DNA of 64,000 nt from positions 744,001 through 808,000 of the forward strand of contig CP073216.1 in NCBI GenBank assembly GCA_020342235.1. Reading direction: 5' to 3'. Both the position numbers and the translations under genes were made by a program. Under the pieces are notes generated by a model, which did not search any database, had not been told where the DNA came from, and was given only the letters and a program-made list of their open reading frames with translations. Each line of letters opens with the position of its first letter. The stretch's first letter is position 1. The stretch comes from Saccharomycopsis phalli (taxonomy: Eukaryota > Ascomycota > Saccharomycetes > Ascoideales > Saccharomycopsidaceae). Below are positions 1-58,718 of this stretch, one piece after another.

Positions 1-3000
1 ACATCGTCACTAAGAAGAAGTATAATGGAAAGTTCTCTGAGAAAAAGTATCAAAATGTTGAGGTTGAGAACCACAAGTAAGACACCTATAACGGAGAAGC
101 AATTCTACGTTGTAATGTACTCACTGAGTAAGACAACTAAGCGGTTATGCTGTTGTAATAACCAGTGAAACTCATAACAATAGGATCTTATAAGGGAATA
201 TTATCTGATACAAAGAGAGGATATTTCCGTAGTTCAAGGGAACAACTAAATCAATCCAATCATCACTACCGTTCCGATTATTCACTTATAAAGGAACAAA
301 AACTCATCTATAATTAACTAAATATCTGAGTATAAGTTTGTAACGATGTCACACTCAATGGACGAGGATATAGACATCGACACAAAAGAATGAAGGAGAT
401 CTCAAGGTTTGCAAAGGATGTAGGAAGAAGGGTTTCCATACCATCAAGAATTGCAGGGTTGCAAAAATGAGAGATGCTAAGGATAAGTCAAACAGGAGGC
501 CTCGTAAATAAAGACGGTGCCAACTGGGTCTTTAAATACAGGATAGGAGAGAAAGAATTGGAAGACTTAGGCACTTCGGTCATGTTGTTGGATACAGGAG
601 CGCAGGCTACTTTAAGTACAAAGTTGGACTTGTTCACAGACCTTAAGGATGAAGTTATCGATTGTCAACCACTAGGGTACGGAGGCTTCAAAGCTACCGG
701 ACCAGGCAACATCAAGATTCCTATAGGAGATTTACACATTACAGTCAAGGGTTATTACATGAAGAAAGAAGATGTGGGGCAAGACATTTCAATCCTTTCC
801 CTAAATGATATTGCTGACATACAAGGGATCGATGTTCAGGTATTAAGAAATCCCCATATCTCATATAACGGAAATTCTACCCCGTTGTTACGGACTTCAA
901 GAGGAATGCTTTATATTAAACTCAATAAAGAGGTGCTGTCTTCTTTTGTAAGCATGTCCCACCTGACTATTCTGGAGGCGCTACTAATACACCAAGCCAA
1001 TGGACACCTACATCCCATCACTTTGGTGAAACTGGCTGGGGATCTCAAATTATCAAAACGTGAGATCCAGGTGCTTAAGTCCTCTAAGATCAGTTGTCAA
1101 GACTGTTTAAATGCAAATGTGAAAAAGATAAGTCCAAAAGGGTCCTTTCACCCGAAAGCCAGTGGTCCGAGACACACATTACATGCTGATTTAGCGTGGA
1201 TCGGGAAAGCTACGTTGTTGGTAATGCTCGATGAGTATAGTAAGATGCTTGATGTTAGGGTGATACCAACGAAGAACTCGGCACAAGGAGTTATTGAAGA
1301 AGTGCTAAGCAAGGGGTTCAAACGCTTCTATTCTGATCAAGGAACGGAATTCAGTTCCAAGAGTTTTATGAACTTCCTAGTCAAGAATAACATTGAGAAG
1401 GTCAAACTTGCTCCCAACTCGAGCAAGCTCAATGGTCTTATTGAACGATATGTGGGTGTGGTAAAGCACAAGGTGAGTGTGATTGTGGCAAGTTTAAGAG
1501 GAGGCAGTCCTAATCCAAGATGGCAAATACTGGATGAAGACATGATGAAATATTATCTCCAAGACATTTTGAGTCACGTGGTATACCAGTACAATAGATT
1601 GCCAAGAGCGCGTGATGGTTTGATTCCCCTTAAGAAACATAACGGCTCTGATGTGGTCCAAACAATAGACAGGCGATCACTTCATGTGTTTGGATCCAAG
1701 GTATACTACAATAAGGGAACGGAGAGAAAGCAAAATCCGATGATCCCCAACAGGATCGGAAGATTCATCGGCTGCCTAAAGGACGTTGTGGGGTACGTTA
1801 TTGAAGATGCGGTAACTGGCCATCGCTACATTACCTCCAACGTGAAGTTTGATCCTCATGAAACAATTTTGCCAATGCCAATCTTACCTAGAGGCAGAAA
1901 GAGTGAAGTTATCCAAGATTTGTCACCACAGACGAGAAAACGGACAAAAGGAAGTGAGATTTCTCAAAGCGAAGGAGAGACGGTTCAAGAAATTGAAAAA
2001 GAAAATGCAGGTTACTACTTCGATTCACTATCTGCAGGTGAATCACAAAACAACTCCAACCTTGAACCGTCAGAACCTGTCCAGAGGCTGATCATCAATG
2101 AACACAATGAATCTATTCAACAAGCACCTAAGAGAGTGAAGAACCAGTTAGCTATCGATGGTAATGATGCGTTATTTAATGGCCATATTAAGAAGTTGAC
2201 TAGAGATGATCGAGCGAATAGACAGGAAGCGAGAGAAAAAGAGATTCTTTCTCATCAGGCGTATGAAACGTTTGTACCAGTGGAGGTGCCTGATAAGACT
2301 AGTTTAATGGGAATGACTTGGGTAGACAAGAGGAAGAGTGAAACGCTTTACAAGAGTCGATTAGTGTTGAGAGGAGATCAAGTTGATCGGTATCAAGAAT
2401 ATGGGTACGAGGGAGATGTCTACTCTCCTACAGTACGACCGACACCGATCCGCATTTTGCTTACGTTAGCCATTAAGGAAGGGTGGTGTCTCGCCCAAGC
2501 TGATGTAAAAACTGCGTTTCTCAATGCTAAACTCCCAGAGGGTACCAGTGTTCTTGCACAACCACCAAGAGAGGTAATTGAAAAGTTGAAAGGCAGACCC
2601 AAACATGGACACAAGTGGGCACTCAAAGTACAGAAAGCCATTTATGGTTTGAAGGAAAGTCCAAAAGCGTGGTATGAACATTTCAAGAAAATCCTCAAAG
2701 AATTAGATATGGAGGAAATAGCGCCAATTCTCAAATCCATTTATCTGAACCCTACAAAGACTATGATTGTGGTAGTTTATGTTGACGATATACTAGTTGT
2801 GGGAAAAAATCGCTCAGAAGTCGACAATTTTTTGAAAAGAGTGGGGGACAGGGTAGAATTGACGATATTAGGATTTCCAAAATGTTTGCTTGGTATCGAG
2901 TTGAAGAAAATGGATCCAAAAGAAGATACTGAGGGGACATTAGTGTGCCGAAATGGATTGATAATGTGCAGAGAACGAGAAGACGAAAGTCGGATTCCGG

Positions 3001-4770
3001 AAGTAACACCAGTTCCAGCACGAAAGGTAAAGTCAGTACCAATCCATACGTACGTGAATATTGACCGGAACAATGAGGAAAGTAAGTATAAGAACTTTTT
3101 GAAATTTACAGGAATCTTAAACTATGTCCAGGGAGCTTGTCGACCAGATTTATCGTTTGTCGCATGCTATCTCTCATCCATGGCTCTGACGAACTATCTC
3201 GAAGTCTGGTACAAAGTTAGGGATGCCATGCATTACTATCTTAGCACTCAAAGATTTGGTATTAATATCAAGCCAAGAGACCGACCTACGAGAATAGAAT
3301 TGTATTCAGACGCTTCATACCTTGGCGAAAAGAACGAGGAGTTGCCCCAGTTTTTGTCTTCATATTACGGCTATGTGGTAAAGGTTCACGGGGTGCCTGT
3401 AACATGGAGGTCAAAGAAAACTGATAAACAGGTTAGTTCTACAACGGAAGCTGAAATTTTAGCGCTTTACGAAGGTCTGCTGGCAGCTCAGGAAGTTGAA
3501 GACTACACAAGCTTACTACTCAACGCTATGGGAATGGAGCAAAGGATGAGAAAGACCCGAGAAGACGATAACGACTTTAGGACAAAAGAAAAGATAACTG
3601 CTTACGTGGATAGTCAACCTGCCTTGTCTAAAGTTACACGTGCAAAGTTGGGTCAAATGAAATATGTGGCGTATTGGAGAAAAATTGAAGATCTTGCAGC
3701 TGAGGGACAATTGGAATTAAAGTATGTCCCAACCGCGGAGCAGCAAGCGGACATGTTTACCAAGCCGAAGGCATTTACCACGAATGGTATAACATGGATA
3801 GATGATTTGAGGAGTATAAATATGCATGCAGAATAAATACTCAAATCAAGTGGACTTAATCAACCCACAATGTACATATTCGTTATTGTTAGTGCACAAG
3901 ACGGTGACGAATATGGGAGTCACTCAATACGACACTCCAGAGTACGAGGAAGGTCTTGATGGCTGTACCAAACGAAGCTTTCGTGTCGGGACAAACCATC
4001 AGATAGCAAAGATAGTCGGTTCGACAATGGATCCTTCAACTCCTGAGTCACATGGACTGTGCTATCTCTGTTGTCAAGAGCTTACTTGCGGCGAGTCCAC
4101 CTGTAAGATAAGATCAGAATCACTCAACCAGATGTCTGAATTACACTGTGAATGGTAAACACAGAGGACATCATTCGCAACCAGTTTAAGGAACAAAAAA
4201 TGTCTCTCGCGAAGACAGCCCTAGGAACTGATAGCGCGAAAATGCACGGGTTTTTCGGTGCGGTAAAAGTCCCACTCGAACCATAGTTTATTGGACGTTA
4301 CAATTACTATGGGAAGTCTCTTGGAGAGTTCCTCCCCGTCGGATAACTTACGTCATAGGATATACATTTCTTCTAGGAAAATAATCTTTCTGATCAATCG
4401 ATTACTTTTCAAAAAGAAGAGGGCATGTCGTGGTTAACAACCACTGCAGAACAATTTCACCTGTACGACGTCGGTGTCGGTAAGAACATTACCGACTCCC
4501 GGTGTTGATAAGACTGAATACTCCAATTCCAGTTATATTGGAATTGATATTATTGGAAGATAATATTCTGATAAGAGATGGAGAAAGTCTATATAAGGAG
4601 GGGTTCTCTTCTTATAGAACACACAATTCAACTGAACAGTTCAGCTAGATATTATATCTAGCAAAGCCCAATCCGGTTATCCAAATCCTAAAGGAACAAA
4701 ACAAATAATTAAGTAGTTTATAGTTCACATAATACTATGTCTATTTCAGGCGATACTATTAACTACGACA
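1..4770 (+). mobile_element. Ty1/copia-type LTR retrotransposon, left end outside the window
   Basis: A Pseudoviridae/copia-type element on the plus strand. A CCHC zinc-knuckle segment of the gag type is readable at about 395-455. It is followed by a pol region at 474-3836 with domains in copia order: protease, integrase, reverse transcriptase, RNase H. After pol comes about 0.9 kb of non-coding DNA with a TATAAGG box near 4593 and a palindromic segment near 4645-4665, which fits an LTR-type promoter region. I could not pair two LTRs because the element starts outside the window, so the right boundary is approximate. The pol region looks whole, which suggests a fairly young copy. It lies downstream of the 3' end of the ABC transporter gene. 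Confidence 0.85.
474..3836 (+). CDS. copia-type pol polyprotein (protease-integrase-RT-RNase H)
   Basis: A pol region of 1120 codons belonging to the Ty1/copia element. Visible parts in order: a retropepsin-type DTGA motif near residue 40; an HHCC zinc-binding segment around residues 170-215; an integrase core with the usual acidic residues (LHADLAW, YSDQGTEF, NGLIERY) around 235-325; a reverse transcriptase with the YVDD box near residue 768; and a C-terminal RNase H (LYSDASY) ending in a KYVPTAEQQADMFTKP segment typical of copia elements. Integrase before RT separates copia from gypsy elements. It looks whole. In this family gag and pol are usually expressed as linked products that are processed by the protease. 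Confidence 0.9.
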   Translation: MLRISQTGGLVNKDGANWVFKYRIGEKELEDLGTSVMLLDTGAQATLSTKLDLFTDLKDEVIDCQPLGYGGFKATGPGNIKIPIGDLHITVKGYYMKKEDVGQDISILSLNDIADIQGIDVQVLRNPHISYNGNSTPLLRTSRGMLYIKLNKEVLSSFVSMSHLTILEALLIHQANGHLHPITLVKLAGDLKLSKREIQVLKSSKISCQDCLNANVKKISPKGSFHPKASGPRHTLHADLAWIGKATLLVMLDEYSKMLDVRVIPTKNSAQGVIEEVLSKGFKRFYSDQGTEFSSKSFMNFLVKNNIEKVKLAPNSSKLNGLIERYVGVVKHKVSVIVASLRGGSPNPRWQILDEDMMKYYLQDILSHVVYQYNRLPRARDGLIPLKKHNGSDVVQTIDRRSLHVFGSKVYYNKGTERKQNPMIPNRIGRFIGCLKDVVGYVIEDAVTGHRYITSNVKFDPHETILPMPILPRGRKSEVIQDLSPQTRKRTKGSEISQSEGETVQEIEKENAGYYFDSLSAGESQNNSNLEPSEPVQRLIINEHNESIQQAPKRVKNQLAIDGNDALFNGHIKKLTRDDRANRQEAREKEILSHQAYETFVPVEVPDKTSLMGMTWVDKRKSETLYKSRLVLRGDQVDRYQEYGYEGDVYSPTVRPTPIRILLTLAIKEGWCLAQADVKTAFLNAKLPEGTSVLAQPPREVIEKLKGRPKHGHKWALKVQKAIYGLKESPKAWYEHFKKILKELDMEEIAPILKSIYLNPTKTMIVVVYVDDILVVGKNRSEVDNFLKRVGDRVELTILGFPKCLLGIELKKMDPKEDTEGTLVCRNGLIMCREREDESRIPEVTPVPARKVKSVPIHTYVNIDRNNEESKYKNFLKFTGILNYVQGACRPDLSFVACYLSSMALTNYLEVWYKVRDAMHYYLSTQRFGINIKPRDRPTRIELYSDASYLGEKNEELPQFLSSYYGYVVKVHGVPVTWRSKKTDKQVSSTTEAEILALYEGLLAAQEVEDYTSLLLNAMGMEQRMRKTREDDNDFRTKEKITAYVDSQPALSKVTRAKLGQMKYVAYWRKIEDLAAEGQLELKYVPTAEQQADMFTKPKAFTTNGITWIDDLRSINMHAE

Positions 4771-5258: not shown

Positions 5259-8200
5259 CTAACTGGCTCTCTTTCCAGCACCCTTTGGAACTCTGGCCAA
5301 CCAATAGAAGAAAACGGTAGCAACCATGTTAAATGCAATGAATGCAACCAAGACACCGATGTTACGGCCAAGTTGCGAGTATTTGATATCGATAGCAGAC
5401 AAAAACTGGTCGGTGTTGCTGATGGCACAGAACAGACACTCCAGGAATGATTGCTTGCTGGCATCGGTCAAAAAGCCGCCAGCCTTCAGGATGTATGACG
5501 CCATGTAAGTTTGGCAGTTCATTCCCAGAGGAGGAGGGAACTTCAAGAACTCGTTAGCTGCACACACAACCAGAGAGTTTGCAATTCCAATGGAAAGCAT
5601 TGCGGCAACAAGGTACGAGAACGGATTGCATCGGTACATGAAGATCCAGAACCCTGGAAGAGCAGTGGCTGAGGCCAAGACACCACAGAAAATCAAACAC
5701 ATGGTGAAAAGCAAAGAAGTCAAGTTGGCGGCGGTGTCAGCAAGCTCCTGGAACGAGATACACAATTGGCCCATGGTCGAAGTGTATACATAAAACAAGA
5801 CAACGACGAACCACATCAAAGCTCCACGGCCATGCAAATCGCCCGCCTCGCTTGCGTTCCGGTAGAGACCCACTGGATAGTACCAGCAGAAGAAGGCAAT
5901 GGTACCGGTGAAGATTTGCCAAGGGACCTCGGAGGTGATTTGCGCGGTGATGAACGCGAACCAGGAAAACGTCTTGGAAGGCCGTTCACGGACCTCGTAC
6001 AAGTCCCGCTGGAAGACAAAGTTTGGCAAGTACTGCTGGACAAGGGTGTTGAAGATCATCATAAACATAAACACCGAGAACATCTGCGACTGGAGACCAA
6101 TCAACGTCTTCTCAGCCTTGAAGAACGCAAAACCATTAAACAACGACGTGGATACGGCCAAAAACAACTTCGAGTACGTGTAGTTTGGCGTTCTCCAAGT
6201 TTGCTCAAACACACGCCGGGTCACCAAGAGGTACTGTTTCCAGAGTGGCGCGGCATACGACTTGAACTTCTCTGGATTCTCGTCCACAGACAACTTGGCA
6301 AGCTCGACTTCCATGGTGTCCAACTCCGTTTGGAGCGACTGGTATTGCTTCGAATTCTTCCACACCTGATGGTAGTCCTGGGTCGAGTGGGACCCTGGAG
6401 CAGCACCAATGACTTCCAACATCCATTCGGCAGGGTTTGCGTCTGGAGGACATGCTGGCGCACCGTACGACTCAAAGTAGTCGATCATAGTCTGACAGTT
6501 TTCGCCCAAATCGCCAAAGTACACGGTCTGACCGCCCCGTTGCAAGAACAACAACCGGTCAAACTCCTGCATCAAAATCGCTGACGGCTGGTGGATCGTG
6601 CACAAAATCGCCTGCCCATGGTCGGCAAGCTTCCGGATCAACTGGCAGATCGACCACGCAGTCTGGGAGTCCAATCCCGAGGTCGGCTCGTCCAAAAACA
6701 CCAACAACTCCGGCTTGGCCACCAACTCAACACCAATGGTCAATCGCTTGCGCTGCTCCACGTTCAAACCTTCGCCGGCAACCCCGACGACGGCATCCGC
6801 GTACTTTCGCATTTCCAACAAGTCGATCACGTAATCCGCGTACTTGACCTTTTCCTCGTGCGACACGCTAGCTGGTTGCCGCAAGACAGCAGAGAAAATC
6901 AAAGCCTCGCGCACCGTGGACGTCGACAAATGCAAATCTTGCTGCTGGACATACCCAATCGACCGCTGGAACGACTTGTCCAACGAACGTCCGTTCACCA
7001 TGCGCACACCCTTTGTGATTTCACCCGAGGTAAGACGCTCCGATAACGCGTTCAACAACGTGGTTTTTCCCGCACCAGAAGCACCCATCAACGCAGTAAC
7101 CGTACCTGGCTTCACGTACCCAGAGACCTCGTTAAGAATGACACGGTCCTCGGACTTGATCTTCACTTGGTACGTCAAGTCGCGCCAGTGGAAAATGTGC
7201 TTGGTCTTGAGCTGCGACTTGTCACCCATGTTGGATGAGTCTCTGTCGTCGGCCAAGACGTCGGAAAGCTTCGCGTCGGAGTCGCCGGACTCGATGTCGC
7301 TCTTCTGCTGCTTCTTGAGCTGCTTCAAGGACTTCTTTTGGAATAGCAAAATCTCGCCCTTTTGCACCGCGCCACGGTTGAACTCACACAAGAAAATGTA
7401 CACACCCAAGAAAAACACGGCAAACGCAATCGTAATGCCAAAGTTCCGCCACTTGTGCACGTTGCTGTACTCAAACGACTGGCCAATGTACGCGTCACCA
7501 TCAATGAAATCTTGACCCACCACTGCGGAAACCGGGGTACAGATCCGGTTCCGTCCGTTGGTAGGATACCCTGGACCCGAAGGCACAAACTGGCTGCACG
7601 GGAACTTGCGGTCGTGGAATTCGTTGGCCACAAGCGACTCAAACGCGTACGCGATTGGGTCCACATAGTTGATCCAGCGGCACCACCCATGCATGTTTGG
7701 CGTTGGGATGACGAATCCAGTAAACACCGTCAAGGCCAACAACAACACCGAAGCCGGAGTCATGGCTTGCGGAAGGGAGGTGGTGGCGGCACCAATACTT
7801 CTAAACAAGTGCGACATGGAGATGGTCGCGGAAAAGTTGAAGAGGAGGTATGCAAAGAAATGGCCCGGGTCACGGCGAAGGTTCACCATGAAGTAGAAAA
7901 CGAGGTTGAACGAGATGGACATGAAGATCTTGGTAGGCATATCCGTGACGATGGACGCAAACGCATCGGCAGAAGGGTGGTACAACGCATAGGTCTTGTG
8001 CTTCTCGACGATGGAACGCGCCTCATAGAGCGAGAAAATCTCCAACAAACTGCCAAACGCGTTGAAGAGAATCGAGAAAAACAACGCGGCGGTCCGGAAA
8101 TAGAACGAGCCCGTGTCGGCTGGCAAGTTGTAAAACACAGACGAAATAAACAACGCCATCACCGAGTGACCAATCACCTGGAAGAGCGTGATGGACGGGT

Positions 8201-9692
8201 CGCCCTTGATCCGCTGGACGTTCCGCGCCATGATATACTTGACTTGCATGAGGTAGTTCACGGTAAATGGCGACTTTGGCCGTTGGCGGCGCGACTGGCG
8301 CGCGACGTGCGCGTTTTTAAAATTCTCCGCGCTCTCGGTGTTGTTTGCCGCGTTGTACGCGTCAATCTCCGCCACCAAGGCCTGGTGCTCCGGCGAGTTC
8401 ATCCAGTAATCGTAAAACTCCTTTGGCGACCGTGGAACCTTATTCTCGTAGCCCTTCTTGGCCACACGCTCCGAAGGCGCGGTGATGGACGTCAAGAAAT
8501 CAGCCGTGGTTTGTCTTTGTGGACACTCGTAGCCCATTTGCTCAAAGTACGCCTTGGCCTTGCGCGCATCGCCAAAGAAAATCTGGTACCCGTCATACAA
8601 CAACTGCACCTTGTCAAAGAGATTGTACGCGACTTGCGAACACTGGTAAATGGCAATCATCGGAGTGGTGTTTGTGATCACCGCCGACGTCTTGAGCGAC
8701 TTGATAAACTCCAACGCGGTCGCAGAGTCCAATCCACGCGTCGAGTTGTCCCAGCATTGCACTTTCGCACCGGAAAGCGCGACCTCGCAAATCGAAACAC
8801 GCTTCCGCTCACCACCAGACACTCCGCGGATGAAATCGTTTCCAACTTTGGTGTTCTTGGTGTGACTCAATCCGTACGTCGCCATAAACACATCAGTATA
8901 ATGCTGCGCATATTGGTCACGTGATATGCCCTCTGGACGGTTCGACGGGGTACGCATCAATGCTGCGAATTTCAAAGTGTCACCGACAGACAATTGCGGG
9001 AAGTGAGTCTCGGTTTCCGCACAATACACGACGTCGCCACGGTAATGGTCATGGATTTGCTTTGGGGTGATTCCGTCGTAGGTGATGACCGAGCCCTTGT
9101 CAATGTGGAACCCGTGAGTTTGCGTAGCAATCGACTTCAAAAACGTCGAGCAACCGGCTCCCGGCTTCCCGAGAATGACACACAACTCGCCCGGCTTGAT
9201 GAGTCCGTCCATTGGCTTTAAAATGTCAAACTCAGGCACTTTCTTCTTGAGCACATAGGTGTTGAGATAGTACTTGGCGTACTTTGGAAGAAAGTTGGCA
9301 AACGTGCTCTGATAGTCTGCCTCGGCGACGTTTCCATAAGCGCGGAGGTTCTTGAAGCTAACGCCCAAGGAGGATGGCTTATAATACTCGGTATCTGCGT
9401 CCATCAACTTCTTGAGGTTCATGACCCAGAACTTGGAGTCAAACGAGTCCGAGTTCGGATCCAAACGAGGATCAGAGTCGTCTCCTCCATGCGGAACCAT
9501 CCCTGGCACATCCGAGAAGGAGTAGTTGGAAATATGGCTCTGGACAGTGTGCAAAGTCGAGGACTTGCTCAACACTCTGGCCAAGTCCTTGACCTTGGCG
9601 GAAATATCATTGTCAAAGCCCTCATACGGAACAGCCTCATGATCTGAGGTTCCATCTGAGACGGGTTCGATGTGATCTTTCTCGTCACTCAT
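5259..9692 (-). CDS. CDR1: PDR/CDR-family ABC drug-efflux transporter (full length)
   Basis: A full-size ABCG/PDR pump of 1477 aa, the usual length for Cdr1/Pdr5, expected in the plasma membrane exporting azoles, other xenobiotics and lipids. The order is NBD1-TMD1-NBD2-TMD2. NBD1 shows the fungal-type Walker A with Cys in place of Lys (GKPGAGCS, about residues 175-182), a normal signature (VSGGERKR) and a Walker B with Asn (WDNSTRGLD). NBD2 has a canonical Walker A (GASGAGKTT, about 873) and Walker B (FLDEPTSGLDS) but a degenerate signature (LNVEQRKRL). This mirrored asymmetry is diagnostic of PDR pumps. The ATG at 9692 is followed by an acidic N-terminus. Only 146 bp separate it from the PPX1 stop, so its promoter probably extends into PPX1; a TATA-like ACATATAAGG lies about 50 bp upstream. 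The family call is secure; which CDR member it is remains uncertain. Confidence 0.95.
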   Translation of the reverse strand: MSDEKDHIEPVSDGTSDHEAVPYEGFDNDISAKVKDLARVLSKSSTLHTVQSHISNYSFSDVPGMVPHGGDDSDPRLDPNSDSFDSKFWVMNLKKLMDADTEYYKPSSLGVSFKNLRAYGNVAEADYQSTFANFLPKYAKYYLNTYVLKKKVPEFDILKPMDGLIKPGELCVILGKPGAGCSTFLKSIATQTHGFHIDKGSVITYDGITPKQIHDHYRGDVVYCAETETHFPQLSVGDTLKFAALMRTPSNRPEGISRDQYAQHYTDVFMATYGLSHTKNTKVGNDFIRGVSGGERKRVSICEVALSGAKVQCWDNSTRGLDSATALEFIKSLKTSAVITNTTPMIAIYQCSQVAYNLFDKVQLLYDGYQIFFGDARKAKAYFEQMGYECPQRQTTADFLTSITAPSERVAKKGYENKVPRSPKEFYDYWMNSPEHQALVAEIDAYNAANNTESAENFKNAHVARQSRRQRPKSPFTVNYLMQVKYIMARNVQRIKGDPSITLFQVIGHSVMALFISSVFYNLPADTGSFYFRTAALFFSILFNAFGSLLEIFSLYEARSIVEKHKTYALYHPSADAFASIVTDMPTKIFMSISFNLVFYFMVNLRRDPGHFFAYLLFNFSATISMSHLFRSIGAATTSLPQAMTPASVLLLALTVFTGFVIPTPNMHGWCRWINYVDPIAYAFESLVANEFHDRKFPCSQFVPSGPGYPTNGRNRICTPVSAVVGQDFIDGDAYIGQSFEYSNVHKWRNFGITIAFAVFFLGVYIFLCEFNRGAVQKGEILLFQKKSLKQLKKQQKSDIESGDSDAKLSDVLADDRDSSNMGDKSQLKTKHIFHWRDLTYQVKIKSEDRVILNEVSGYVKPGTVTALMGASGAGKTTLLNALSERLTSGEITKGVRMVNGRSLDKSFQRSIGYVQQQDLHLSTSTVREALIFSAVLRQPASVSHEEKVKYADYVIDLLEMRKYADAVVGVAGEGLNVEQRKRLTIGVELVAKPELLVFLDEPTSGLDSQTAWSICQLIRKLADHGQAILCTIHQPSAILMQEFDRLLFLQRGGQTVYFGDLGENCQTMIDYFESYGAPACPPDANPAEWMLEVIGAAPGSHSTQDYHQVWKNSKQYQSLQTELDTMEVELAKLSVDENPEKFKSYAAPLWKQYLLVTRRVFEQTWRTPNYTYSKLFLAVSTSLFNGFAFFKAEKTLIGLQSQMFSVFMFMMIFNTLVQQYLPNFVFQRDLYEVRERPSKTFSWFAFITAQITSEVPWQIFTGTIAFFCWYYPVGLYRNASEAGDLHGRGALMWFVVVLFYVYTSTMGQLCISFQELADTAANLTSLLFTMCLIFCGVLASATALPGFWIFMYRCNPFSYLVAAMLSIGIANSLVVCAANEFLKFPPPLGMNCQTYMASYILKAGGFLTDASKQSFLECLFCAISNTDQFLSAIDIKYSQLGRNIGVLVAFIAFNMVATVFFYWLARVPKGAGKRAS

Positions 9693-48898: not shown

Positions 48899-50587
48899 AT
48901 GAAGCCCACCGTACAAATTAAAGCCGAGCAGGAGAACGAGTTGCGGCCGGGGGCTAGCCAGGGGTCGACGGACTTTGTCAAGAAGTTGTTCCAGATGCTC
49001 GGGGAGGAGTGCTACTTCAGCGTGGTGCGATGGACTAAATCCGGTGACAGTTTTGTGGTGTTGGACACCAACGAGTTCACCAAGGAGATCTTGCCAAAGC
49101 ACTTTAAGCACAGCAACTTCCTGAGCTTTGTGCGGCAGCTCAACAAGTACGATTTCCACAAGGTAAAGCTCACCAACAGCGAAAGGCTCATGAAGAACTA
49201 CGGCAACGGGGTATGGGAGTTTAAGCATCCGGAGTTTAAGCGAGACAACCGGGAGGCGCTCGACAACATCCGGCGAAAAGGACCTATCCAGAAGAAAAAC
49301 GGCGACGACTACCTGCACGAGGCGATTTCTGCGCTTCGCCGAGACATTCTGAGTCTTAGCAGCGACAACTCGATGTTGTTTGACGAGCTCCGCTCGATGA
49401 AGACAAAGTACAATGGCGTCGTGGAGACGTTGTTGCAGATCAAGATGGTCAACGACAAGTATCGGGACTCGCTTGCGACTTTGATGGGGTGTGTGTCTGG
49501 GTCGGGGATCAAGGTTCCGGCGTTGGACCTTCCACTGTTGTCGTCTGTCGGTCTGGGTATGGGTCAGACGATGAATCAGGGGCAGGGGCATATGAATCAG
49601 GGGCATATAAGTCTGGTACCAATAAACCAGGGATCGATAAACCAGGGATCGATAAACCAGGGATCGATAAACCAGGGATCAATAAGTCTGGGATCAATAA
49701 GTCTGGGACCAATAAACCAAGGATCAATAAGTCTGGGACCAATAAACCAGGGATCAATAAACCAGGGACCAATAAATCAAGCCCCAATAACCCAAGCCCC
49801 AATAACCCAAGCCCCAATAACACAAGGCCAGATAAACCAAACCCAACTGACCGTCTCCAACGTGCCAAACATCTCCCCGAGCGTGCCTAACATGCCCGTC
49901 CAAAACGTCCCAGCTGTAACAAACGTCTCACCCGTTCCCACGTCAACAGAAAGCCAGTTCCACGTGCTTCTCGTCGAGGATGACGTCGTCTGCATCCAGC
50001 TATGCCGCAAGTTCCTCATGAAATACGGCTGCACCGTCGAGATCCTCACCGACGGACTTGCCGCCATTTCCACCGTCAACACGAAAAACTACGACTTGGT
50101 GCTCATGGACATTGTCATGCCCAACCTTGACGGTGCCAGTGCCACGCTGATCATCCGTCGATACGACAGCACAACCCCAATCATTGCCATGACAGGCAAT
50201 ATCAAGGACGACGACTTGATGGCGTATCTCCGCCACGGCATGAGCGATATCTTGGCCAAGCCTTTCACCAAGGAGGACTTGTACTTGATCCTCGAAAAAC
50301 ACTTGAAGCAGCGCACTCCTGTCTCCCAGCAGCGCAGAGGTCTGGCCGGTCCGCCCCAGCAAGAGCCGTCTGCTTCCTCACACTCTCGTCATCCGTCCCA
50401 GCTGGACGGAAAACAAGACAACACCCTGCCAGATAAGCCAATGGGCGCCACTCCGCCTGCGATTCAGCGACCGGGGATGTTGATTCCGATGACGGGGGCA
50501 ATGCCTATGATGCCTCTCAATGGGTTGGAGCCGATTGGTGAGGTTGTCATGGAGCCACAGGGGAAGAAGCAGAAGCTTTCCAATTGA
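48899..50587 (+). CDS. SKN7: Skn7-type transcription factor: HSF DNA-binding domain plus response-regulator receiver
   Basis: A 562-aa nuclear response regulator of oxidative and cell-wall/osmotic stress, at the end of the Sln1-Ypd1 phosphorelay. Residues 20-115 form an HSF-type DNA-binding domain (FVKKLFQMLGEE, then SFVRQLNKYDFHKVK), followed by a coiled coil (about 140-190). A middle region is built of INQGSINQG/ISLGP repeats (about 225-310). The receiver domain spans about 355-480 (VLLVEDDVVC), with the phospho-acceptor Asp at residue 404 in LVLMDIVMP and the conserved Lys in ILAKPFT. In-frame CTG codons at residues 75 and 417 sit where relatives have Ser or Ala, supporting CUG as serine. 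The last codons and stop resemble the repeat unit that follows. Confidence 0.96.
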   Translation: MKPTVQIKAEQENELRPGASQGSTDFVKKLFQMLGEECYFSVVRWTKSGDSFVVLDTNEFTKEILPKHFKHSNFLSFVRQLNKYDFHKVKLTNSERLMKNYGNGVWEFKHPEFKRDNREALDNIRRKGPIQKKNGDDYLHEAISALRRDILSLSSDNSMLFDELRSMKTKYNGVVETLLQIKMVNDKYRDSLATLMGCVSGSGIKVPALDLPLLSSVGLGMGQTMNQGQGHMNQGHISLVPINQGSINQGSINQGSINQGSISLGSISLGPINQGSISLGPINQGSINQGPINQAPITQAPITQAPITQGQINQTQLTVSNVPNISPSVPNMPVQNVPAVTNVSPVPTSTESQFHVLLVEDDVVCIQLCRKFLMKYGCTVEILTDGLAAISTVNTKNYDLVLMDIVMPNLDGASATLIIRRYDSTTPIIAMTGNIKDDDLMAYLRHGMSDILAKPFTKEDLYLILEKHLKQRTPVSQQRRGLAGPPQQEPSASSHSRHPSQLDGKQDNTLPDKPMGATPPAIQRPGMLIPMTGAMPMMPLNGLEPIGEVVMEPQGKKQKLSN

Positions 50588-53843: not shown

Positions 53844-56024
53844 ATGAGCCAGCGATTTCTCTACCAGATGCCAGTGACCCCGCGCGACTGGGATACAGAC
53901 TCGCCCAGATCCAGTCGGTCGCGGAATTTTTTTTCATTTGAGTCTGAATCAGTGTCAAGCTTGAAAACACCTGATACTTTGGTGTTTGATATGGGAAAGG
54001 GTGTGCGGGAATCAACGTATGACGACGATATCGATGATATCATTGATGATTATGCCGAGACCCAGTCGACATTTTGTCCGGAGCGGAATGAGGATTATGG
54101 AGCCGACAAAAATGACGGCTGGGAGTATTTACGGAGTAAAGGCAGACGGAGTGGAGATCGACAATGTGGAGAGAGGTGTGGTCAGGGGAGCCGATTTCAG
54201 GAGAATCGGCTTCAGGGGAATCAGTCTCGGAGAGAGGTATATGCTGCATATCAGGAAAAACCGAAGCACCATGGACGAGAGAGACTGGGATATCAAGGAC
54301 GAGAGAAACTAGGATATCAAGAACAAAAGAAATTGGAATATCATGGACAAAAGAAATTGGAATATCATGGACAAAAGAAATTGGAATATCAAGGACGAAA
54401 GAGACTGGGATACCAAGGCCAAGGGAATCACGAATATCTTCGAAAACAAAAGTATTCAAGAAATCACGGGTATCAAGAAAGTCTTATGAGTCGGGAGAGC
54501 CTAGACCAAAGTCTCGATCAGAGTCTGATTCAAAGCATGGACATAAGCCAAACAGATCAGCAATATCCAGAAAATCAAAGATATCCAAGAAATCAAGATT
54601 ATCCAGCAAACGGGTATTATCAAGAAAGTCTATTGAGTCTAGAGAGCACTGACGAAAGTCTTGGCCAAAGTACTGGTCAGCATCTTGACCAATTTCTGGA
54701 CCATACTATGGACGAATGTCTGGATATAAGTTTGCTCCATGACACTGTACTTGTCGATGAGTCCTATAAGACAGGGAAACAAAGCAAGGATATTGAAATG
54801 AAAAGCAAGGACGTTGAAATGGAACAAAAGAAAGCAATTGAAGAAAAACGGCGCCAAAAAGAAATTAAAGTGAAGCAACTCCAGAAGAGAATTAGAGCGA
54901 AGCAGCGTGAGAAAAAAACTAGAAGACAGCTTCAAAAGGAAACTGAAACAAAGCCTCAGAATGAAATAAAATCCCAGAATGAAACGAAGCCTCAGATTGA
55001 CATGAAATCCCAGAATGAAATGAAATCCCAGCATAGAATGAACCCTCAGAATGAAATGAAATCCCAACATAGAATGAACCCTCAGAATGAAATGAAATCC
55101 CAGCATAGAATGAACCCTCAGAATAAAATTGAAATGAATCCACCCCAGAGAAACGCATCTGAGGGAATCATTCCCCGAGAAAAAGCCCAACTGTCGGTAA
55201 AACGTGCCCGCAGACAGTCAAGCATCTGCCAGGACGTCATTTCTATTGTCAGTGAGGACCAGAAGCGGATGTCTTTCTCGCTTCAACCGGCAAATGAGTT
55301 TAGCATGTACCGAACACAAATCTTGGCAACAGAAAATGCCCAGTATAGGGCAAACGATTTCCAGCCCTACGATTCTCCACGGAGCATCATCGGCAGTGAT
55401 TTTTACCAGCTCACTGCGGTGGATCTTCGGGGAAACACGTTTGATTTTGGGCAGCTACGTGGTAAGGTGGTGCTTGTGGTTAACATTTCGTTTGATGGGA
55501 AGCTTGCCTCAAAGAATTTCCGGTTTCTTAACCAGCTTCAGGATAAGTACTCGGGTAGATTAGTAATTATTGGATTTCCTTGCACCCAGTTTAAGTTTTC
55601 GCACAGCCGAAGCACAAGCCTACCTCTGATTAGCGAGACACCCAAGGCTACACATTCGCGCTGGGATTCGACGTTTACCATGGCGACGGAAAGCACACGA
55701 AATGCGGAGATAGTGGAAGGATTAGTGTGTGAACGGGCGTTGCGGTTTCCGGTGTTTAACGAAGTGAAGGTGAATGGTCGGCGGACGTCGAACATTTATA
55801 CGTACTTGAAGAACGAAAAGAATGGGGTGTTTGGTACGAAATTTATCAAGTGGAACTTTGAGAAGTTTATTGTGGATCGCCATGGAAACGTACACAAGCG
55901 GTTTTCATTTCTCAAGAATGTTGGACAGATTGAGCAGGTTGTGCAGAGCTTGGTTGAAGAGGATGACGTGACAATTAATCAGAATCACTCCTTGGTGGGG
56001 TTTAATGAGGATATGTTTACGTGA
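53844..56024 (+). CDS. GPx-fold protein 1: disordered Lys/Gln-rich N-terminus fused to a peroxidase-like domain lacking the catalytic Cys
   Basis: The protein is 726 aa from the first ATG (53844). Residues 1-510 are polar and repetitive: a YQGQ/KKLEYHGQ block (about 150-200), then QKE/KPQNEMKSQHRMNPQ repeats (about 370-430). Residues about 515-720 follow the glutathione peroxidase fold: DFYQLTAVDLRGNTFDFGQL, GKVVLVVN, IIGFPCTQF, FPVFNEVKVNG and IKWNFEKFIVDRHGNV. Of the GPx tetrad, Gln582 and Trp670/Asn671 are kept, but the loop that should carry the peroxidatic Cys reads SFDGKLAS (residues 549-556) with no Cys. Cys629 aligns with the resolving Cys. A 27-residue insert precedes it. It is likely a pseudoenzyme; partner and location are unknown. 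A second GPx-like gene follows on the same strand. Confidence 0.85.
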   Translation: MSQRFLYQMPVTPRDWDTDSPRSSRSRNFFSFESESVSSLKTPDTLVFDMGKGVRESTYDDDIDDIIDDYAETQSTFCPERNEDYGADKNDGWEYLRSKGRRSGDRQCGERCGQGSRFQENRLQGNQSRREVYAAYQEKPKHHGRERLGYQGREKLGYQEQKKLEYHGQKKLEYHGQKKLEYQGRKRLGYQGQGNHEYLRKQKYSRNHGYQESLMSRESLDQSLDQSLIQSMDISQTDQQYPENQRYPRNQDYPANGYYQESLLSLESTDESLGQSTGQHLDQFLDHTMDECLDISLLHDTVLVDESYKTGKQSKDIEMKSKDVEMEQKKAIEEKRRQKEIKVKQLQKRIRAKQREKKTRRQLQKETETKPQNEIKSQNETKPQIDMKSQNEMKSQHRMNPQNEMKSQHRMNPQNEMKSQHRMNPQNKIEMNPPQRNASEGIIPREKAQLSVKRARRQSSICQDVISIVSEDQKRMSFSLQPANEFSMYRTQILATENAQYRANDFQPYDSPRSIIGSDFYQLTAVDLRGNTFDFGQLRGKVVLVVNISFDGKLASKNFRFLNQLQDKYSGRLVIIGFPCTQFKFSHSRSTSLPLISETPKATHSRWDSTFTMATESTRNAEIVEGLVCERALRFPVFNEVKVNGRRTSNIYTYLKNEKNGVFGTKFIKWNFEKFIVDRHGNVHKRFSFLKNVGQIEQVVQSLVEEDDVTINQNHSLVGFNEDMFT

Positions 56025-57047
56025 GAATGCCGTTTAGGGTGCATGTCATGACTGGAATGCCGCTTAGGGTGTATGTCATGATTAGAATGCCGCTTAGGAT
56101 GTGTGTCATGATTAGAGTGGTTACATAGAGTGTGTGTCATGATTAGAATGGCTACATATTTGACGGTCATGATTACGCACGAATGGTTACATAGGATGTG
56201 TGGCGTGAACATGGTATATGGACGTATTGATGGTCATGCTATACGGAAGTGTTAATGAATGTCTTTCATCAGATACGTGGAATGCGTTTCGTGGAGCGTG
56301 ATAATGGCATGATAATGGAGGTATTAATAATAGATAAGTTAAATGAGAGGGATGTCTGGGACATATTTTATGGATGTGATATATGAGACACTTTACATAA
56401 GGATGCTTGCATTAACTCATAAGGTTTGCAAGTCTAAGAAGGTTATAGTTGTAAGAAGCCATTAGCTGCTAACTTACACAGTTATAAATCCTTCTTTGGT
56501 AAAATATAGAATTTAAAGGCAGTCGGAAATGGGTATGGATATGGTTTGGGTATTAAGAGTATATGGTTTGGGTATAATGAGTATATGGTTTGGGCATAGT
56601 GCGGAAATAGTGTTGATGTTTAACATTGTGGAAACATTAATGTGTAAACACTAATCTGGCAATAGCAATCTGGAAAGAACAATATGGCAAAAACAATATG
56701 GCTGTGATAATGTGGCAATAGCAATCTAGAAATAACAATATGGATATAGTTCAGCAATCTGGGAATATTTTTGCATAGTTTGCATATATATGGATTATAA
56801 TTTGGGAACACAATGGGGAATAATGAGATGGATATATATTACACTTGTAAGAATTTCTTGACACAACGCCAAGAATAATATTCATATGCAAATTCCAAGA
56901 ATAGCAATTCAGGGTGACTGAATCCTGGAGCTTGGGCTGTCTTACCCAGTGTGTCTTGTACCGAGGCATGCATAAAAACCTTAATTTGAACAAGCGACTC
57001 TTGGAACCAACCCCGAATATATAACCGCAACTCTAGCCTGATTCCAC
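56025..57047. repeat. 3' array abutting the stop codon of GPx-like 1, then intergenic DNA
   Basis: From the stop codon, 56023-56145 holds four copies of a 30-nt unit (GAATGCCGCTTAGGGTGTAT plus GTCATGATTA). 56535-56600 repeats ATATGGTTTGGGTATAATGA-like units and 56640-56745 repeats CAATATGGCAAAAA-like units. A TATA box lies near 57017. No gene is seen. Confidence 0.8.
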
Positions 57048-57980
57048 ATGTCCAGCACAATATTTTCGGAAGAATATTTCGACGCAGTATCGTGGCGCGA
57101 TGATCAGGAAGCGTTCCTGGTTGTAGCACGTAACCACCGGCCCAAACCTAACATTCTCAGGGTCTCAGTGAACTCATTTGAAGAGATGCTTTCTCATCCA
57201 TTACTGCCTCTGAGCGCAACTCTGGTGGGCGACACGCAAAGCACCTTGGCTGATTTCTATGGAGAGCACTGTTACGACACAAAAATCCCCTTGGAAAGTC
57301 CTGGAAACTATGACTGGGTATCGAGTGTGTCACGACAGTGCACAACGCGGTCCGAGAGAAGCTTAGGGAAGGAATCGCAATATCTGAAGAGTGTGTCGTG
57401 GTCGGGAATGCGGTCATTTCTTCTCTCGCTCCACAAGACGGTCGACGAGCCTCTGTATCTGGACTTTTACGATCTTGAGTGTGCATTATATGACGGAACA
57501 ATGTTTAGTTTTGCGTCTCTCCGTAACAAGGTGGTTCTTATTGTGAATACTGCGTCATTCTGTGCTTTTCGGAAGCAACTCCTTGAGTTGCGGCTGCTCA
57601 AGGAAAAATACGCCGATGCTGGATTTGAAATAATTGGGTTTATGTCTAACAGTTTTATGCAGGAGCCATTTGACTCTATTCGAAGCGGAGAGAAATACTG
57701 CACAAAGTATGACTTGAATTTCCCAATAATGGAGAAGGTCAAGGTCAATGGTAAGCACATGTCGCCGGTGTACAAGCACCTCAAGAACTCAAATGTGCCT
57801 GGAAGAATAAAGGACCTCAGGCCCGAGGAAGGGAACTACGGTGGGGATGAAACATTCTCCAAGCGCGTGCGGTGGAACTACGAGAAATTCCTTGTAGACC
57901 GGAATGGTAACGTGATACGGCGATTTCGACCGATTGTGAAACCGACTGAGCTTCTGAGATACATTGAGGAGTTGCTCTGA
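57048..57980 (+). CDS. GPx-fold protein 2: peroxidatic Cys kept, catalytic Gln lost
   Basis: The protein is 310 aa from the ATG at 57048, against about 160 aa for a normal yeast Gpx; the first 138 residues are an extension of unknown type. The GPx domain reads DFYDLECALYDGTMFSFASL, KVVLIVNTASFCAF, EIIGFMSNSF, NFPIMEKVKVNG and RWNYEKFLVDRNG. Cys172 aligns exactly with the peroxidatic Cys (SKCGF in Gpx3), Cys218 with the resolving Cys, and Trp276/Asn277 are kept. The normally strict FPC-x-Q-F motif is FMSNSF, so Gln is Ser202 and its Cys is gone. A 16-20 residue insert precedes the RWNYEKF strand. It could be a weak or altered thiol peroxidase or a redox sensor. It lies about 1 kb after GPx-like 1 on the same strand. 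Confidence 0.87.
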   Translation: MSSTIFSEEYFDAVSWRDDQEAFLVVARNHRPKPNILRVSVNSFEEMLSHPLLPLSATLVGDTQSTLADFYGEHCYDTKIPLESPGNYDWVSSVSRQCTTRSERSLGKESQYLKSVSWSGMRSFLLSLHKTVDEPLYLDFYDLECALYDGTMFSFASLRNKVVLIVNTASFCAFRKQLLELRLLKEKYADAGFEIIGFMSNSFMQEPFDSIRSGEKYCTKYDLNFPIMEKVKVNGKHMSPVYKHLKNSNVPGRIKDLRPEEGNYGGDETFSKRVRWNYEKFLVDRNGNVIRRFRPIVKPTELLRYIEELL

Positions 57981-58157: not shown

Positions 58158-58718
58158 ATGGCACACTACTTTCTCAACAACGGTTCCATTGATTCGTTGC
58201 AGTCTGACCGCGGAATTCTTGGTGAGTCTGCCACAATCAAGATAAGCGTTTACGACCATGAAATCGACACCCATGACTTTGAGTCGCTCGCGCAACCAAT
58301 TCGCGACAACCGTCCTTTTCACCCGCAACGAAGTTTCACCACCAGCACGGTTGGCGACTTGTCTAGCAGCCTGCAAAAAAAGACCCACAAGAAGGGCTAC
58401 AGTATTTCCGCAATGGAGTCTGTCACATGTATGATCCTTGACGATAAGCCGTTTTCTTTCGAGCCAGCAACGATCCAAGCTGTCCGCGGGAAAAAATCCG
58501 ACCCTAGTCTCCAAAAGACAAAGCTGTCCTCACACAGCACGTTTGGCACCATATCCTTGCCTGGACGTAGTCACAGTGTTTTGGGCAGCAGACTGAACAG
58601 AAAGCTGGCCAATCTTTTCAGAATGGGGTTTTCTTTTAAGGCGTTGAAGGCAGGTTCCCGCGACCCTGACATGATCACAAACTCAAAATTGGACAAGTAC
58701 CGTGGGCAAAAAGTGTAA
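58158..58718 (+). CDS. Small uncharacterised protein (186 aa)
   Basis: ATG at 58158, stop at 58718. No family recognised. It is Ser-rich and basic toward the C-terminus (SRLNRKLANLFRMGFSFKAL, then LDKYRGQKV). The centre has motifs such as KKGYSISAMESVTCMILDDK. No signal peptide or membrane span. It lies 177 bp after GPx-like 2 on the same strand, so a shared context with the two GPx-like genes is possible but unproven. Confidence 0.6.
   Translation: MAHYFLNNGSIDSLQSDRGILGESATIKISVYDHEIDTHDFESLAQPIRDNRPFHPQRSFTTSTVGDLSSSLQKKTHKKGYSISAMESVTCMILDDKPFSFEPATIQAVRGKKSDPSLQKTKLSSHSTFGTISLPGRSHSVLGSRLNRKLANLFRMGFSFKALKAGSRDPDMITNSKLDKYRGQKV

Follow-up and report, generated by a model that had tools for sequence, protein, structure and literature searches.

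We describe two tandem genes of the glutathione peroxidase (GPx) family, GPx1 and GPx2, on the forward strand of a 64,000-nt stretch of Saccharomycopsis phalli DNA (contig CP073216.1, positions 744,001 to 808,000; hereafter the window). The interpretation we favour, and consider likely, is that GPx2 is a diverged 2-Cys thiol peroxidase of the Gpx3/Hyr1 type and that GPx1 is a neighbouring paralogue, non-catalytic and long-tailed. GPx2 carries the complete catalytic tetrad of Cys, Gln, Trp and Asn, whereas GPx1 keeps only the Trp and the Asn and also lacks a cysteine at the resolving position. The active-site losses of the two copies are thus not complementary, as the original prediction for this DNA had held them to be.

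GPx1 (53844-56024, 726 residues) and GPx2 (57048-57980, 310 residues) are uninterrupted open reading frames (ORFs) separated by a 1,023 bp spacer. Both score well above the gathering cut-off of 27 bits for Pfam GSHPx (PF00255), GPx1 with 63.7 bits (E = 1.4e-17) and GPx2 with 85.1 bits (E = 3e-24), and for both the best sequence match in the PDB is yeast Gpx3/Hyr1 (3cmi; 3.2e-27 and 1.2e-29, respectively). Alignment of the two domains with each other scored 177, compared with a maximum of 58 across 500 shuffles; together with the Pfam E-values this excludes family membership by chance. Structure prediction with AlphaFold2, for which 71 of the 114 relatives fetched for comparison served as input, gives a thioredoxin-like GPx fold for both proteins, in residues 518-706 of GPx1 (55395-55961) and residues 139-310 of GPx2 (57462-57977). 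For each protein, every one of the 50 PDB entries in the Foldseek listing is a GPx-family chain or a designed variant of GPX4, and Hyr1 is among them. The top matches among those listed are poplar Gpx5 (2p5q, 1.1e-16) for GPx2 and 2wgr (2.0e-15), followed by 3cmi (2.9e-15), for GPx1. The tandem pair of GPx-fold genes originally predicted is therefore borne out by ORFs, Pfam and PDB matches, and every residue named in that prediction (Gln582, Cys629, Trp670 and Asn671 in GPx1; Cys172, Ser202, Cys218, Trp276 and Asn277 in GPx2) is found where it was placed.

Catalytic residues of the two proteins

To read the active sites we aligned both proteins with the fetched relatives, of which 107 were non-redundant and used for conserved-column counts; the bacterial part of the sample consists of the best 80 of 589 confirmed loci. 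For each of the four tetrad columns, 113 of the 114 fetched relatives carry the expected residue, although the counts for Trp and Asn are biased upward by the presence of WN[FY] in the search patterns; the Cys column and both Gln columns discussed below lie outside these patterns. In GPx2 the tetrad consists of Cys172 (TGT, 57561-57563) in the peroxidatic column, Gln205 (CAG, 57660-57662) within F-M-Q-E-P, and Trp276-Asn277 (57873-57878). A resolving-type cysteine, Cys218 (57699-57701), lies inside a predicted helix (residues 211-221), in line with the helix alpha-2 position of the resolving Cys in Gpx3-type enzymes, and occupies the same column as the second Cys of poplar Gpx5, a column that is nearly invariantly Cys among the relatives.

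GPx1 presents a different picture. The peroxidatic column holds Gly552 (GGG, 55497-55499), two base changes away from a Cys codon, in agreement with the earlier observation that the catalytic loop has no Cys. The catalytic QEP loop is replaced by an insert (residues 584-617, 55593-55694) that is modelled with a predicted local distance difference test score (pLDDT) below 50 over most of residues 587-613; Thr615 falls in the tetrad Gln column, and there is no Gln at all in residues 584-634. Leu627 sits in the resolving Cys column of Gpx3. Cys629 (55728-55730), which had been described as resolving-type, is indeed present but lies two positions past the Gpx3 column and one past the column common to GPx2 Cys218 and poplar Gpx5. 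Trp670-Asn671 (55851-55856) is retained. The residues of GPx1 thus support its earlier description as a pseudoenzyme that bears a large extension.

Because the catalytic Gln is readily mistaken for the neighbouring Gln of P-C-N-Q-F, its correct placement matters. The tetrad of human GPX4 comprises Sec46, Gln81, Trp136 and Asn137, and the paper that lists it also names Gly79 (PMC7869902). Since this Gly sits two residues before it, Gln81 corresponds to the Gln of F-G-x-Q-E-P and not to that of P-C-N-Q. In the aligned Gpx3 fragment, Cys36 and Cys82, the redox cysteines of the enzyme (PMC6545440), stand at index 34 and 80, and Trp125 and Asn126 at 123 and 124. This constant shift of two identifies the Gln of P-C-N-Q-F, at index 64, as Gln66 and that of QEP, at index 68, as Gln70. 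The former is kept in 109 of the 114 fetched relatives and replaced by Glu, Asp or Asn in the other five, all of which have complete tetrads; the latter is kept in 113. The original prediction was right to use the Gpx3 set Cys36-Gln70-Trp125-Asn126, but it located Gln70 in P-C-N-Q-F. Ser202 of GPx2 (AGT, 57651-57653), which it took for the loss of the strict catalytic Gln, is in the Gln66 column, and Gln582 of GPx1 (55587-55589), which it took for a retained catalytic Gln, is that same non-tetrad residue; the true tetrad Gln is missing from GPx1.

Comparison with known proteins places these differences in context. GPx2 resembles Saccharomyces cerevisiae Gpx3/Hyr1/Orp1 (3cmi) in having equivalents of Cys36, Gln70, Trp125 and Asn126 together with a resolving-type Cys; it differs in that this second Cys stands, in one alignment, one column later, in 16 more residues before the Trp (between Leu245 and Trp276), and in its 138-residue extension. 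GPx1 departs from Gpx3 further, having no counterpart of Cys36, Gln70 or the Cys82 column and carrying a 517-residue extension. Poplar Gpx5 shares with GPx2 both the column and the context of the second Cys (C-T-R/K-aromatic), although it is a plant enzyme whose deposited chain of 170 residues has no such extension. An ORF in a virus-labelled IMG/VR record (L114, 1926-2558) is a second dead-looking GPx: like GPx1 it is a GPx-family protein without the catalytic Cys, but it has Tyr, Met, His and Ser in place of the four tetrad residues and is only 210 residues long, with no long tail.

Both proteins have diverged from the rest of the family. Gpx3 keeps all 36 columns that are conserved in at least 90% of the 107 relatives, GPx2 keeps 29 and GPx1 21. 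Losses in GPx1 are concentrated in the active site, with 9 of 14 active-site columns changed versus 6 of the remaining 22 (Fisher p = 0.04, with the columns sorted by hand after the data had been seen). In a quick tree the end branches measure 3.93 for GPx1 and 2.71 for GPx2, compared with a median of 0.51; a test of GPx1 and GPx2 as sisters returned an approximately unbiased (AU) p = 0.4, with long branches on both, a result that speaks neither for nor against the descent of one copy from the other by tandem duplication.

N-terminal extensions and repeats

Large unrelated N-terminal extensions of about 510 and 138 residues had been noted, and we find 517 and 138 residues before the fold. The GPx1 extension (residues 1-517, 53844-55394) is of low complexity and contains in-frame repeats with periods of 18, 21, 36 and 48. 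Its reading frame is free of stops over 517 codons, while each of the other five frames contains 11-40. All four of its repeat arrays have periods divisible by three, compared with 14 of 43 arrays between genes (p = 0.017, with only four arrays on the GPx1 side). The same is true of all 29 arrays inside 18 other ORFs of the window taken as genes, though ORFs chosen for openness favour frame-keeping repeats. The stop-free frame and the repeat periods indicate that the GPx1 extension is probably coding and translated; the resulting N-terminus would probably be disordered. Speaking against this, a codon-usage score trained on 12 ORFs of the window gave no coding signal in either extension, whereas the GPx domain of GPx1 is coding-like. 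The non-coding-like codon usage of the GPx1 extension may be a result of repeat growth, which seems to be rampant in this genome. The window contains 79 separate tandem-repeat arrays, and the long repeat tail of GPx1 is less remarkable than it appears because repeats are common throughout. One array of 30-bp units (56024-56150) starts on the final base of the stop codon that ends GPx1 and extends into the intergenic region.

The frame of the GPx2 extension (residues 1-138, 57048-57461) is open over all 138 codons, whereas every one of the five alternative frames contains 2-6 stops. Two further genes in the window have a start context similar to its CCAC-ATG. The extension is modelled with a pLDDT of 29-73 per 10-residue block. 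Translation may instead start at Met121, which would leave a short leader; in yeast, an N-terminally extended form of Gpx3 occurs in the mitochondrial intermembrane space (PMC5368413). Neither extension belongs to a known family as judged by Pfam, since neither gave a match at E-values up to 10 when searched by itself. Searching with whole GPx2 produced two extra Pfam matches (E = 0.068 and 0.27), which we regard as chance-level, and two NCBIfam matches to EntB/EntC on the GPx1 extension (about 6e-4) fall far below the cut-offs and probably reflect low complexity.

Proposed mechanism and alternative readings

From its residues, GPx2 is probably a working 2-Cys thiol peroxidase. We propose that a hydroperoxide would oxidise Cys172, activated by Gln205, Trp276 and Asn277, to a sulfenic acid, that the oxidised Cys172 would then form a disulfide with Cys218, and that this disulfide would be reduced, most likely by thioredoxin. 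Cysteine oxidation, resolution and reduction by thioredoxin is the scheme described for plant and fungal GPxs (PMC8614756). GPx1, by comparison, should be unable to perform the peroxidase reaction because it has neither a peroxidatic Cys nor a tetrad Gln. In the rice-blast fungus, Hyr1 partly rescues a yeast hyr1-delta mutant, and changing either redox Cys to Ala abolishes the rescue (PMC3077360); activity would accordingly not be expected of a protein that lacks the peroxidatic Cys. If GPx1 acts at all, it would most likely serve in binding or scaffolding, without catalysis, as suggested by its retained Trp-Asn motif, predicted fold and long repeat-rich N-terminus.

Several observations weigh against GPx2 being active as proposed. 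Ala173, beside the peroxidatic Cys, stands where all 114 relatives have Gly; Met199 takes the place of a Pro found in all of the 107 non-redundant relatives and Arg175 that of a Thr found in 98 of them; and the loop before Gln205 is one residue shorter. One alignment puts Tyr217 in the Gpx3 Cys82 column and Cys218 one column later. The model reaches a confidence of 82 in the block containing Cys172 and 67-73 across residues 201-220, GPx2 evolves fast, and Gpx3 was the sole fungal relative compared. Given the fast evolution and the changes next to the active site, the activity of GPx2 may be poor. One could go further and regard GPx2 as dead as well, which would make the two proteins independent pseudoenzymes, a possibility raised in the original prediction. 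We consider this unlikely: both Cys residues, the Gln, the Trp and the Asn are all in place, and the domain model is good outside two loops, with 10 of 17 ten-residue blocks over residues 141 to 310 exceeding 90 and dips at 201-220 (67, 73) and 251-270 (52, 49).

For GPx1, an alternative to a retained non-catalytic protein is a decaying, functionless duplicate whose frame is open by chance or because function was lost recently. This would be compatible with an active GPx2, so that the two readings do not exclude each other. The long end branch, the retention of just 21 of the 36 strongly conserved columns and the non-coding-like codon usage of the N-terminus are what such decay would leave. 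The gene nevertheless stays open, with an unbroken frame, through all 726 codons, its repeat periods are exclusively frame-keeping, its domain has coding-like codon usage, and its losses fall more heavily on active-site columns, the hand sorting of these columns notwithstanding. On balance decay seems unlikely. At the other extreme, GPx1 could be a maintained regulatory pseudo-peroxidase in which the dead fold binds GPx2 or a client such as a Yap1/Cap1-type factor and the 517-residue tail recruits or clusters partners, forming a peroxide-sensing scaffold beside its own active enzyme. In yeast, Gpx3 serves as the H2O2 sensor for Yap1 (PMC6545440); for GPx1 we regard such a role as speculative and rather improbable.

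The original prediction further suggested that, each copy having lost a different catalytic element, the two proteins might work as a heteromer or as a peroxide sensor plus scaffold; a heteromer would either restore a single active site or share out sensor and scaffold roles. Both are tandem paralogues that evolve fast and have altered active-site loops, but since GPx2 has all four tetrad residues and GPx1, missing two, has none that GPx2 lacks, there is nothing complementary to combine. Plant and fungal GPxs are moreover described as mostly monomeric (PMC8614756), and we hold the heteromer to be highly improbable. Introns or errors in the gene models or the assembly could in principle produce the missing residues or the extensions, given that the gene models rest on the sequence of one assembly and that the GPx2 extension is short and devoid of codon signal. 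An artefact of this kind is very unlikely, however: Gly552 is two bases from a Cys codon and Ser202 three from the Gln codons, the frames are intact, and the open frame and repeat periods argue for a real GPx1 extension. Reassignment of CUG as the origin of the altered catalytic residues is ruled out, as no CTG codon occurs at any named active-site residue.

Tandem GPX genes are already known in a budding yeast: Candida albicans GPX31, GPX32 and GPX33 adjoin on chromosome 6. The GPxs of this species are described as fairly small, with conserved active sites, and the authors allow that the three tandem genes may contribute very weakly in the short term (PMC11527291). The S. phalli pair is similar in being adjacent GPX genes in a budding yeast, but comprises two genes, both extended, one of them without an intact active site. 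The new element is a long-tailed member lacking both the catalytic Cys and the Gln. No fungal GPx without the catalytic Cys was reported in the titles and abstract openings listed by searches of open-access literature, which is weak evidence. Such a long-tailed paralogue would reveal non-catalytic capacities of the GPx fold.

Neighbouring genes and codon reading

About 3 kb upstream of the pair lies a SKN7-like gene (48899-50587) with an HSF DNA-binding domain and a response-regulator domain. The proximity of an oxidative-stress-type regulator to the GPx genes is perhaps due to chance. Just downstream of GPx2, an ORF of 186 residues (58158-58718) has mildly coding-like codon usage and no Pfam match. 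Among the 12 ORFs used to train the codon-usage score the lowest value belongs to an ORF of 1120 residues (474-3836), which looks, from its motifs, like a Ty1/copia-type polyprotein.

The reading of CTG codons is consistent with membership of the CUG-Ser clade, without proving it. CTG at codon 303 of GPx2 aligns with Ser in Gpx3 (read by eye), and CTG at codon 75 of the SKN7-like gene stands opposite Ala in all three displayed alignments. When CTG is read as Ser, the Pfam scores rise slightly, from 85.1 to 86.7 for GPx2 and from 63.7 to 63.9 for GPx1. The genes of the window mark it as budding-yeast DNA: a transporter gene (5259-9692) matches CDR1 chains 9iuk (2122 bits) and 9s2c (1870 bits) as well as the Pdr5 chain 7p03 (1869 bits).

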